Source: Acidimicrobiales bacterium (GTDB lineage: Bacteria; Actinomycetota; Acidimicrobiia; Acidimicrobiales; AC-9). Taken from it: a stretch of 50,597 nucleotides of DNA. This document shows positions 4,786 through 50,569 of the stretch, in pieces; position 1 is the stretch's first letter, and each line of letters starts with the position of its first letter. The position numbers and the translations under genes are program-made. Location of the stretch: the NCBI GenBank assembly GCA_036491125.1, contig DASXCO010000238.1, positions 1 to 50,597 of the forward strand. The letters are read 5' to 3'. The notes beneath the pieces were generated by a model. That model did no database searches. It saw only the letters and a program-made list of their open reading frames with translations, and was not told the DNA's origin.

Positions 4786-5436
4786 GTGGAACCGGAGCAC
4801 TCCGAGGAGGTGGCCCCGACGGCAGCGCGACGACAGCACAGCGACACGGATACGGCGTCACAGATCCTCGACGTCGCCGAGCGGCTCGCGCAACGCCGAG
4901 GGTTCAACGGCTTCAGCTATGCCGACATAGCCGACGAGCTGCACATCACCAAGCCTGCGCTGCACTATCACTTCGCCAGCAAGGCGATCCTCGGGGAAGC
5001 TCTGATTCGGCGCTACGCGGCGTGGTTCGCCGAGGCGCTCACCGCGGTCGACACCGACTTGGCGGATGCGCCGGCCAAGCTCGAGGCCTACGCCGACCTG
5101 TACCTGGACGTGCTCCGCAACCAGCGGATGTGCCTCTGCGGCATGCTGGCCTCGGAGTACCAGACGCTCCCCGAGCCCATCCAGCGGGCGGTCATCCGCT
5201 TCTTCGACGACAACGAGGCGTGGCTGGAGGGCGTGCTCGAGCAGGGCCAGCGGGAAGGCAGCCTGCACGTCTCGGGCTCGAGGAGCGAGGCGGCCCGCAC
5301 GATCGTGAGCGCCCTCGAAGGCGCCATGCTCGTGGCCCGCCCCTACGGCGACGTCGCCCGCTTCCAGGCCGCGGCGACGCGCTTGCTCGAGGGGCTGGCA
5401 AGCCCGCAGCGCGCCGAGGCCGCCGGTAGACGGTAG
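4786..5436 (+). CDS. TetR/AcrR family transcriptional regulator
   Basis: A 216-residue regulator. The N-terminal helix-turn-helix runs from about residue 24 (ASQILDVAERLAQRRGFNGFSYADIADELHITKPALHYHFASKAILGEALI), a textbook TetR DNA-binding domain with the conserved LHYHF recognition segment. The C-terminal ligand domain (LYLDVLRNQRMCLCGMLASEYQTLPEPIQRAV) resembles the TetR_C_33/AcrR group, with Cys-rich CLCGM and FFDDNEAWLE. The GTG start at 4786 fits the domain boundary. A perfect palindromic operator lies just upstream at 4744-4761, implying autoregulation and control of the divergent TIGR03086 gene. The inducer is unknown. Confidence 0.92.
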   Translation: MEPEHSEEVAPTAARRQHSDTDTASQILDVAERLAQRRGFNGFSYADIADELHITKPALHYHFASKAILGEALIRRYAAWFAEALTAVDTDLADAPAKLEAYADLYLDVLRNQRMCLCGMLASEYQTLPEPIQRAVIRFFDDNEAWLEGVLEQGQREGSLHVSGSRSEAARTIVSALEGAMLVARPYGDVARFQAAATRLLEGLASPQRAEAAGRR

Positions 5437-5532
5437 GCCGCCACCGGGCGATCCGGAGTGTGGATCTGCGGGCAGGGCTTGACAACGCGGCGGGAAGCGC
5501 CAACCGTAAGCGTCGACGAAGGGAGCCCTTGG

Positions 5533-6570
5533 ATGCCGTCTGCGACCATTATCAGCGACGATGTACGGAGAGCCGAGGCCACGCCGGCCGACGGGCGGCT
5601 CCTCGTCGCACCCGAGCGACTGGTCGAGGCGATCGGCTGGGAGCTCGAGCCCGAGGGTCTGTGCCGGGGCGAGATGTGCGTCCCGGTGCGTGATCGGGCG
5701 TCGCTGTTCGTGGGGGACGAGGTGGACCTGGCGGCCGTCGCCGCGGCCCTGGGGCGAGCGGCCGTCGTCGACGCCCCCGGGAGGATCGCCGCCCTGGCGA
5801 TGGACGCCGAGGGGCGTCGTCAGGCGCTCGACTCGCTACGCGCACCTCCCTTCGTCCTCGACGACCTCGATGGACACCCGCACCGGCTGGACGAGTGGCG
5901 CGGGCGCAAGAAGCTGCTGGTCGCCTTCGCCTCGTGGTGAGGCTGCCGCTATGACCTGCCCGGGTGGCAGGCACTGCAGGACGAGCTCGCCGGCGACGGC
6001 CTCACCGTGGTCGCTGTCGCCATCGACGATTCGCCCGACGACGTGCGCCCGTGGGTCGAGCACATCACTTTCCCGGTGCTCATCGACCCCAACCACGTGC
6101 TCACCGAGATCTACGCCATCAGCAACGTCCCGACCGTCATCTGGATCGACGAGGACAACAGGATCGTGCGGCCCAACGGCGTCGCGTTCGGCACAGACAT
6201 GTTCAAGGACTTCACGGGCGTGGAAGCCGCCCCGCACATGGAAGCGGTGAGGCGGTGGGTCCGTGGCGGTGAGGTGCCGATCGTGGCCGACGAGGCCCGG
6301 CGGGCTGTCGGTGACCTCAGCCCCGACGAGGTGCTCGCTCGCCTGCACTTCCGCATCGCCGCCGAGGCCCGCCGGCAAGGCGACGAGGTGACGGCGCGCC
6401 GTCACTTCAAGGAGGCCGGCGACCTGGCCCCCAACGACTTCACGATCAGGCGTGCCGCCATGCCGCTCGTCGGGGAAGATCCCTTCGGGGAGGAGTTCTT
6501 CGACCTCTACCAGGAATGGCAGCGGGCGGGCAGCCCGTACCACGGCCTGTCGGCGGGCGAAGCGACCTGA
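5533..6570 (+). CDS. Redoxin (ResA/TlpA-like) selenoprotein with in-frame UGA at residue 136
   Basis: The frame from the ATG at 5533 (GGGAG about 7 nt upstream) runs 345 residues if the UGA at 5938-5940 is read through. Before the UGA the protein has GWELEPEGLCRGEMCVPV and a thioredoxin-fold entry KKLLVAFASW. After it comes GCRYDLPGWQALQDEL in the same frame, then VVAVAIDDSPDDVRPWV, YAISNVPTVIWIDEDNRIVRPN with the cis-Pro, and a helical C-terminal tail (ARRHFKEAGDLAPNDFTIRR). The UGA therefore occupies the position of the reactive Cys in a W-x-G-C-R redox motif. I recall a redoxin family described with Sec at this WAxxUGxR site. A hairpin lies 14 nt after the UGA (separate entry). A TTGACA at 5479-5484 may be a -35 box. 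A point-mutated Cys codon or sequencing error is the alternative, but the undisturbed downstream frame argues for decoding. Confidence 0.85.
5953..5972 (+). promoter_or_regulatory. SECIS-like hairpin downstream of the redoxin UGA
   Basis: CCTGCC (5955-5960), loop CGGGT, GGCAGG (5966-5971) form a perfect 6 bp stem, extendable by a G-C pair across one bulged A. The second loop base is G and lies 21 nt after the UGA. Bacterial SECIS elements typically have a small loop with G in its first two positions, 16-37 nt after the UGA. This supports selenocysteine insertion but was identified by eye. Confidence 0.6.
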
Positions 6571-7265
6571 GCGCAGCCCGGAAGCCCGCAACGACAACAC
6601 CCGGCAAGCCGGCCCGCCCGGCGCGCCGGGCGACCCCCGCAGCCGCCGCCCGGGAGCTGGCCACCAGGGACCCGGTGGTCGCCCGCCTCCTCGAGGCGGT
6701 CGGACCACCTCGGTTCCGAACGCCGATGGAGACCCACTTCGCCGCCCTGGTGCGGTCCGTGACCTACCAGCAGCTCGCCGGGCCCGCCGCGGCCGCCATC
6801 CACGGCCGGCTCATCGCCGCCCTCGGTGGCGACGTCAACCCCGAGGGGATGCTCGCCCTGTCGTCGGAGGAGCTGCGCGCCGCCGGGCTCTCGGGCAACA
6901 AGGCGGCGTCGCTGCAGGACCTGGCGGGCAAGGTCCTCGACGGCACGGTGGTGCTGGATCCCCGGGGCCTGTCGCGCGAGGGCGACGAGGATGTCATCAC
7001 CCGGCTGTCGAGCGTCCGCGGCATCGGCCGCTGGAGCGCCGAGATGTTCCTCATGTTCCAGCTCCGCCGTCTCGACGTATGGCCCACCGGCGATCTCGGC
7101 GTGCGCCGGGGCTACGGCCTGGCGTGGGGCATCCCCATGCCGACCCCGCGCCAGCTGGAGCCGCTGGGGGACCCGTTCCGGCCCTATCGCACGGTCGTGG
7201 CCTGGTACTGCTGGCGAGCGAGCGAGCTCTACGCCGGCACCGCCGAGAGCGCGGTCACCCGGTAG
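6516..7265 (+). CDS. DNA-3-methyladenine glycosylase-like HhH-GPD protein (AlkA type)
   Basis: A base-excision repair glycosylase removing alkylated bases. It contains the AlkA-type entry FAALVRSVTYQQLAGPAAAAIHGRL, a helix-hairpin-helix (LSSVRGIGRWSAEMFLMF) and the catalytic Asp in WPTGDLGVRRGYG (D193 counted from 6516), followed by the family's WRASELY end. The start is uncertain. The ATG at 6516 overlaps the redoxin gene by 55 bp and adds an Ala/Pro/Arg-rich tail of about 45 residues. The next in-frame candidate is a GTG within DPVVARLL, which would trim the domain. It probably shares a transcript with the redoxin gene. Confidence 0.9.
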   Translation: MAAGGQPVPRPVGGRSDLSAARKPATTTPGKPARPARRATPAAAARELATRDPVVARLLEAVGPPRFRTPMETHFAALVRSVTYQQLAGPAAAAIHGRLIAALGGDVNPEGMLALSSEELRAAGLSGNKAASLQDLAGKVLDGTVVLDPRGLSREGDEDVITRLSSVRGIGRWSAEMFLMFQLRRLDVWPTGDLGVRRGYGLAWGIPMPTPRQLEPLGDPFRPYRTVVAWYCWRASELYAGTAESAVTR

Positions 7266-49351: not shown

Positions 49352-50569
49352 ATGGCGAAGGTGTTCGTGGGCCATGACTGGGCCGAGGCCCACCATGACC
49401 TGTACGTGGAGGATGGTCACGGCGGCCGTCTGGCCAAGGCTCGTGTGCCCGAGGGGGTGGAAGGGGTCGGCCGCTTCCATGAGCTGGTGGCCCCGTTCGT
49501 CGAGGATCCCTCCGAGGTGCTGGTGGCCACCGAGACCGACCGGGGCCTGTTCGTGGGCGCGTTGGTGGCTACCGGCTACCAGGTCATCGCCGTGAACCCG
49601 TTGTCGACTTCGCGCTATCGGGAGCGACACTCGACCTCGGGCGCCAAGTCGGACCCCGGAGATGCCAAGGTGCTGGCCGAGCTGGCCCGCACCGACGCCC
49701 ACAATCACCGACCGGTGGCTGGCGACAGCGAGTTGGCCGAGGCGATCAAGGTTCTGGCACGAGCCCACCAGAGCATGATCTGGACCCGCCAGCGCCAGAC
49801 CAACCAGCTGCGCTCGACCCTGCGGGAGTTCTACCCGGCCGCCCTGGTCGCCTTCGACGAGCTCGCCACCCCCCAGGCCCTCGAAGTGCTGGTCATGGCC
49901 CCGACGCCGACGTTGGGCCGGCGTCTGTCCCGCTCGAAGATCGCCGCCGCACTGCGCCGAGGCGGCCGCCAGCGCCGGATCGAGGAACGGGCGCTCGAAA
50001 TCCAGACTGCCCTGCGTTCCGAGCAGTTAGAGGCGCCACGCCTGGTGGCGGGAGCCATGGGCGCCAGCGTGGCCGCCCTGGTGGGGGTGATCACCGAGCT
50101 CAACGCCCAGGTCGGCCGGCTCGAGGCGGAGATGGTCGAGCATTTTGAGCAGCACCCGGACGCCAAGGTCATCCGCTCCCTGCCAGGACTGGGGATGATC
50201 CTCGGCGCCCGGGCGCTCGGCGAGTTCGGGGATGACCCGAACCGCTACCTGGACACCAAGTCTCGCAAGAACTACGCCGGCACGTCACCCATCACCAAGG
50301 CATCGGGTACTCGCAAGGTCGTGCTCGCCCGCTACGCCCGCAACAAGCGTCTGGCCGACACCTGCTACCTGTGGGCGTTCGCTGCTCTCAGCGCCAGTCC
50401 TGGGGCCCGGGCGTTCTACGACCAGCGGAGAGCTGCCGGCGACACCCACCACCGTGCTCTACGTGCCCTTGCCAACCGCCTCGTCGGCATCCTCCACGGG
50501 TGCCTGAGGCACGGCACCATCTACGACGAACACGTGGCGTGGGGCCACCGAACCCAAGTCGCTGCTTGA
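49352..50569 (+). CDS. IS110-family transposase (DEDD recombinase)
   Basis: A 405-residue transposase. The N-terminal RuvC-like DEDD domain has D9 in FVGHDWAEAHHD, E61 in ATETDR, and D101/D104 in SDPGDAKVLAEL. The C-terminal transposase-20 domain has SLPGLGMILGARALGEFGD and NYAGTSPITKASGTRKVVL with the catalytic-serine region. It ends HRALRALANRLVGILHGCLR, typical of the group. The ATG at 49352 has AGGAGG 5 nt upstream and replaces a GTG at 49346. It is apparently intact and probably capable of recombination. Confidence 0.95.
   Translation: MAKVFVGHDWAEAHHDLYVEDGHGGRLAKARVPEGVEGVGRFHELVAPFVEDPSEVLVATETDRGLFVGALVATGYQVIAVNPLSTSRYRERHSTSGAKSDPGDAKVLAELARTDAHNHRPVAGDSELAEAIKVLARAHQSMIWTRQRQTNQLRSTLREFYPAALVAFDELATPQALEVLVMAPTPTLGRRLSRSKIAAALRRGGRQRRIEERALEIQTALRSEQLEAPRLVAGAMGASVAALVGVITELNAQVGRLEAEMVEHFEQHPDAKVIRSLPGLGMILGARALGEFGDDPNRYLDTKSRKNYAGTSPITKASGTRKVVLARYARNKRLADTCYLWAFAALSASPGARAFYDQRRAAGDTHHRALRALANRLVGILHGCLRHGTIYDEHVAWGHRTQVAA

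Follow-up and report, generated by a model that had tools for sequence, protein, structure and literature searches.

A probable selenocysteine-containing UGC-type redoxin from the Acidimicrobiales and its relatives with Sec/Cys exchange

A TGA codon interrupts an otherwise continuous redoxin gene of an Acidimicrobiales bacterium, raising the question of whether it is decoded as selenocysteine (Sec), ends the protein, or results from decay or error. The gene lies in a 50,597-nucleotide stretch of DNA (hereafter the window) with a GC content of 70%, and its features are collected in Table 1. Counted from the ATG at 5533, the TGA is codon 136, in the context FASW-U-GCRYDLPGW, and it is followed by 209 codons before the terminal TGA at 6568–6570; translation thus bears out the in-frame UGA reported in the initial annotation. 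We consider Sec insertion in a UGC-type redoxin to be the very probable reading of this gene (probability about 0.93), based on sequence comparison.

Table 1. Predicted features of the redoxin locus, in window coordinates.
Feature	Position	Strand	Basis
Shine-Dalgarno-like AGGGAG, 7 nt 5′ of ATG 5533	5520..5525	+	read from sequence
Predicted selenoprotein gene, UGC-type redoxin, 345 residues	5533..6570	+	translation; full-length homologues with one TGA, same place
N-terminal domain, residues 1–102, GLCxxxxC (C44, C49)	5533..5838	+	invariant columns; model pLDDT 94.8
ResA/TlpA-like thioredoxin domain, residues ~103–218	5839..6186	+	Pfam Redoxin 3.8e-14, AhpC-TSA 7.8e-14; Foldseek ResA 1su9 E 4.5e-11
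UGA codon, predicted Sec136, opens U-G-C motif	5938..5940	+	translation; comparison with relatives
TGC codon, Cys138, last residue of U-G-C motif	5944..5946	+	invariant, 26/26 aligned homologues
Putative bSECIS hairpin CCTGCC-CGGGT-GGCAGG, stem 5955–5960/5966–5971, loop CGGGT 5961–5965	5955..5971	+	
TPR-like repeat, residues 269–302, helical C-terminal region	6337..6438	+	Pfam TPR_2 E 0.0097, under cut-off

Openness of the frame past the TGA is weak evidence by itself, because 29 of the 156 window TGAs that end frames of at least 130 codons have at least 209 open codons after them. The commonness of such frames would also fit a TGA that genuinely ends translation or has broken the frame by mutation, leaving a decayed redoxin gene and a 135-residue fragment, as would the use of TGA as the terminal stop of the redoxin gene itself and of many window ORFs. 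The perfect 6-bp hairpin noticed earlier 3′ of the UGA is present, with a 5-nt loop that starts 21 nt past the TGA (20 nt between), and it shows the properties laid down in the bSECIS rules quoted in PMC13188914: six pairs, a CGGGU loop with G in second position, a UGA-loop spacing of 20 nt, and −10.4 kcal/mol. The local fold at the hairpin is no better than that of shuffled sequences, and synonymous reshuffling with the window's own codons yields all six pairs in 40% of cases. The window hairpin taken alone was therefore rejected as evidence, its pairing being largely dictated by the peptide DLPGWQ. Bacterial SECIS elements are too variable for Rfam-type models, and an Rfam search of the window gave no SECIS family match. 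Since an open frame and a single hairpin say little alone, the case rests on comparison with relatives, where three observations stand above chance: homology both before and after the TGA, downstream change dominated by third positions, and the restriction of one codon to TGA or Cys.

Homologues, defined by an E-value of 1e-50 or better, occur in 65 of the 298 genomes of the same order that were searched. Across the order, 49 genomes have U (TGA) in the TGA column and 15 have Cys (TGC/TGT), the latter comprising 14 genomes read as TGC/TGT and one (G142) taken from a separate reading; no other codon was found among these 64 readable genomes, and the 65th homologue, which begins after the TGA site, is outside the count. 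A scan of named genomes returned 80 loci, nearly all from Acidimicrobiia MAGs, with TGA in 56 and Cys in 23 of the 79 that are readable. Three loci titled Euryarchaeota, Deferribacteres, and Bifidobacterium breve (L189, L202, and L203) sit within the Acidimicrobiia tree and are probably mislabelled bins or contigs. Codon conservation in relatives, which the initial annotation had named as a check, thus amounts to 49 TGA against 15 TGC/TGT and nothing else, and the expectation of an actinobacterial example was justified, the relatives being MAGs of the Acidimicrobiia (Actinomycetota).

Two congeners, known from independent assemblies and encoding proteins 85% and 89% identical to that of the window, carry the same TGA; a Cys codon at the equivalent of 5938–5940, read-level evidence of which had been named beforehand as grounds for giving up the Sec reading, is absent from both. 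The source assembly is a draft broken into 251 contigs, which lends some plausibility to a sequencing or assembly error by which a Cys codon (TGC/TGT) came to read TGA, but the recurrence of the codon in both congeners and in dozens of other genomes makes such an error extremely improbable. Of the differences from the two congeners 3′ of the TGA, most (41 of 54 and 52 of 76) are at third positions. This pattern, together with the same-codon TGA in 49 genomes, its exchange with Cys codons only, and the presence of Sec machinery in the window genome, leaves almost no room for a decayed gene. A frame that is open when TGA is read as U is equally open when it is read as Trp, so that decoding as Trp or another residue, or general read-through, would account for the frame just as well. 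Against such decoding, to which we attach a negligible probability, the exchange partner is always Cys and never Trp, TGA serves as an ordinary stop elsewhere, including at the redoxin gene's own end, and the TGA homologues accompany tRNA-Sec, SelA, SelB, and the hairpin.

The window genome scores above cut-off for tRNA-Sec (66.3 bits), SelA (406.8 bits), SelB (252.5 bits), and SelD (332.7 bits), and the absence of Sec genes, the second finding that had been named as incompatible with Sec, is thus contradicted. Among the 40 closest genomes, the eight with a TGA homologue all possess tRNA-Sec, SelA, SelB, and SelD above cut-off, and the three with a Cys homologue yielded no tRNA-Sec, SelA, SelD, or above-cut-off SelB. 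Overall, 46 of the 49 TGA genomes yielded a tRNA-Sec, versus 4 of the 15 Cys genomes (Fisher p 5e-7, a value that is indicative only because the genomes are related and not independent). Of the three TGA genomes in which tRNA-Sec was not detected (G071, G118, and G194), two have completeness values of 80% and 88%, and one of 95%. Three genomes (G047, G142, and G288; loci L112, L093, and L116) have the Cys form of the redoxin despite encoding tRNA-Sec; in these, Sec was lost from the redoxin, or never gained in it, while the machinery stayed. In many relatives (e.g., G018, G028, and G035), although not in the window's genus, SelD has an in-frame TGA as well.

Across relatives, the aligned sequences indicate that the hairpin is near-invariant in Sec genes and relaxed in Cys genes. 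The inner five stem pairs are intact in 87 of 88 unique Sec sequences versus 20 of 35 Cys sequences, and in 84 of 85 versus 18 of 26 (p 3e-5) when only genes encoding the same peptide, LP[GV]WQ, are compared. For this same peptide, GGG encodes the loop Gly in 57 of 85 Sec genes versus 2 of 26 Cys genes, GGC being the commonest Gly codon overall. Furthermore, compensatory pairs are seen at C18-G28 (with a change from Gln to Glu) and G15-C31 in one locus (L113), and in several genes TTG...CAA stands in place of CTG...CAG. A test of these hairpin traits on phylogenetically independent pairs had too few pairs for significance; in it, the trend was never reversed for stem pair 18-28 or the GGG codon, and was occasionally reversed for the broader GGG-or-GGT trait. 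The proposal that Sec replaces the reactive Cys is hence backed by Sec/Cys exchange, by full Sec machinery, and by a conserved bSECIS with compensatory changes.

For domain searches, the product was read with C in place of U. The initial annotation had assigned a thioredoxin fold to the roughly 210 residues following the UGA; the length is right (209 codons), whereas the fold is limited to residues ~103–218 and the remainder is TPR-like, with helices in the C-terminal part of the model and a TPR_2 match in 9 of 26 homologues. An AlphaFold2 model built from 26 homologues has a mean pLDDT of 94.2, and C44, C49, residue 136 (U/C), and C138 are invariant among these sequences. The ResA-type fold is recovered with a Foldseek probability of 1.00, a TM-score of 0.76 by target length, and a sequence-profile E-value of 1.8e-21; the NCBIfam ResA model gives 61 bits, below its 170-bit cut-off. 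The PF00578 match (E 7.8e-14) coincides with UGC at residues 136–138, the combination of thioredoxin fold (pfam00578/cd02966) and U-G-C used as a criterion in the literature. The thioredoxin domain is shared with Bacillus ResA and with TlpA, StoA, and DsbE (rmsd 1.5 over 114 columns for 1su9), but these proteins have C-x-x-C where the window protein has U-x-C, one residue shorter, with extra N- and C-terminal domains and without a signal peptide. Aligning the protein to solved relatives requires a gap of one residue between the two active-site positions, so that C-x-x-C has become U-x-C. ResA, TlpA, StoA, and DsbE carry an export signal or membrane anchor. In the redoxin, no signal peptide was seen on inspection by eye, and the protein is therefore probably cytosolic.

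Selenoproteins of this general kind have been catalogued as Prx-like (UGC-containing) since at least 2008 (PMC2398784), and UGC-containing Prx/TlpA-like forms appear also in PMC9312934 and PMC13188914, the last naming them the UGC-containing TlpA disulfide reductase family. They likewise combine a thioredoxin fold with U-G-C and come from environmental DNA, the comparison with the window branch being by published motif and domain alone. A literature search, thin in its coverage of subscription journals, found no paper on a UGC redoxin in the Acidimicrobiia, and a phage search gave generic thioredoxin matches only. Among redoxin selenoprotein families, the best match is NCBIfam NF041054 (ResA-like WAxxUGC motif-containing protein, WAxxUGC_long; E 1.8e-64), at 218.3 bits, short of the cut-off of 300, with the best stretch stopping at position 203 of 354. 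The WAxxUGxR family mentioned in the initial annotation therefore exists, but the window gene scores under its cut-off and falls on a separate branch. In profile searches, NF041054 matches all 26 sampled clade members (best E 5.5e-72), and it has in common with the window gene the three-part layout, the N-terminal Cys pair, the WxSW-U-GC site, and the hairpin position; the window gene differs in its score and branch and in having 38% identity to an NF041054 member of the same genome. A maximum-likelihood tree of 153 proteins, obtained by a quick search and with some long branches, separates the window clade (139 rows: 102 Sec, 37 Cys) from 14 NF041054 rows with 100% SH-aLRT, and within the clade it implies about 9–10 changes between Sec and Cys, of which at least four lie on well-supported branches. 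The comparative evidence thus documents the family, its Sec/Cys exchange, the accompanying machinery and hairpin, the domain layout, and the invariant residues, and by sequence the window gene appears to represent a new subfamily of the known UGC-containing selenoprotein kind.

The NF041054 member of the window genome (G000:C91:54358-55140; L047) is a second UGC selenoprotein, with TGA at the same site and 417 bits, and is cut by a contig end. A SelL-related sequence on the minus strand of another contig (G000:C232:13102-13407; L217) matches NF040769 with 139.8 bits, has TGA in HLA-U-LPC, and is a candidate for the third selenoprotein of this genome. NF040769 proteins are likewise Sec-bearing redoxins, but they have a UxxC motif and are without the N-terminal Cys-pair domain, and the window gene reaches 17 bits against their cut-off of 120.

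In the proposed mechanism, SelB with Sec-tRNA(Sec) would bind the hairpin 14 nt past the UGA, leading to insertion of Sec136. This residue would serve as nucleophile in a thioredoxin fold like that of ResA, with C-x-x-C shortened by one residue. Sec136 would attack a disulfide or a hydroperoxide and form a selenenylsulfide with Cys138, which would in turn be reduced by the invariant Cys44/Cys49 pair or by a thiol system of the cell. We infer this chemistry, the role of Cys44/Cys49, and the substrate, and we put the odds of the proposed Sec136 redox chemistry at about even. The protein is most likely a cytosolic thiol-disulfide or hydroperoxide reductase, two activities between which sequence does not discriminate. 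That it should be a peroxiredoxin-like Sec peroxidase and not a disulfide reductase is possible, if somewhat doubtful: Sec is frequent in peroxidases, Pfam Redoxin and AhpC-TSA both match, and the literature uses “Prx-like (UGC-containing)” (PMC2398784) as well as “TlpA disulfide reductase family” (PMC13188914), but the top sequence and fold matches are to ResA, TlpA, and other thiol-disulfide oxidoreductases, and U-x-C, with the second redox residue two positions on, is an unusual peroxiredoxin layout.

The N-terminal domain (residues 1–102) has no Pfam match and no clear fold match in Foldseek (best E 0.39), and a second look with VIA gave a best Z of 4.6, to usher N-terminal domains, below the meaningful level. 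A suspected likeness to the N-terminal domain of copper amine oxidase was unsupported and was discarded. The domain occurs in 12 of 198 genomes of the phylum and, wherever the sequence can be read through, is always followed by a W/Y-[UC]-GC redoxin; since it was found fused to UGC/CGC redoxins only, it is probably confined to this family. The invariant Cys pair suggests that the domain acts as a partner in redox chemistry or metal binding. That the C-x4-C domain constitutes a new fold, serving the Sec centre as an internal electron relay or as a partner that binds metal, is an unlikely extension of that suggestion.

The surroundings of the gene were rejected as a clue to function, neighbours being kept only within the genus and lineage-specific elsewhere, with no conserved operon found around the redoxin. 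A TetR regulator gene lies just upstream (4786–5436); as a candidate regulator of the redoxin it was dismissed, since none of 140 related loci contains a match, and in one congener (G002) the upstream neighbour is instead a mycothiol-maleylpyruvate-isomerase-like gene. Downstream, an HhH-GPD DNA glycosylase frame (6516–7265) overlaps the end of the redoxin gene when read from its first ATG, and has this position in both congeners only. A scan for Sigma-70 promoters and terminators found nothing. The window also contains an actinobacterial sRNA, Ms_AS-4 (RF02464, 82.7 bits), at 50179–50260 on the minus strand.

The redoxin adds a large and well-supported Acidimicrobiia subfamily, unnamed by the closest curated model, to the selenoproteins, and its genes are ones that standard annotation would truncate at the UGA. 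The repeated exchange between Sec and Cys, together with gain or loss of the Sec machinery, provides a natural series on the benefit of selenium to a redox enzyme. In the genomes examined, a conserved N-terminal Cys-pair domain, without recognised fold or function, is seen with the UGC/CGC redoxin only; if its reading as a relay or metal-binding partner were true, the protein would be a selenium redox enzyme complete in itself, of a so far undescribed type.
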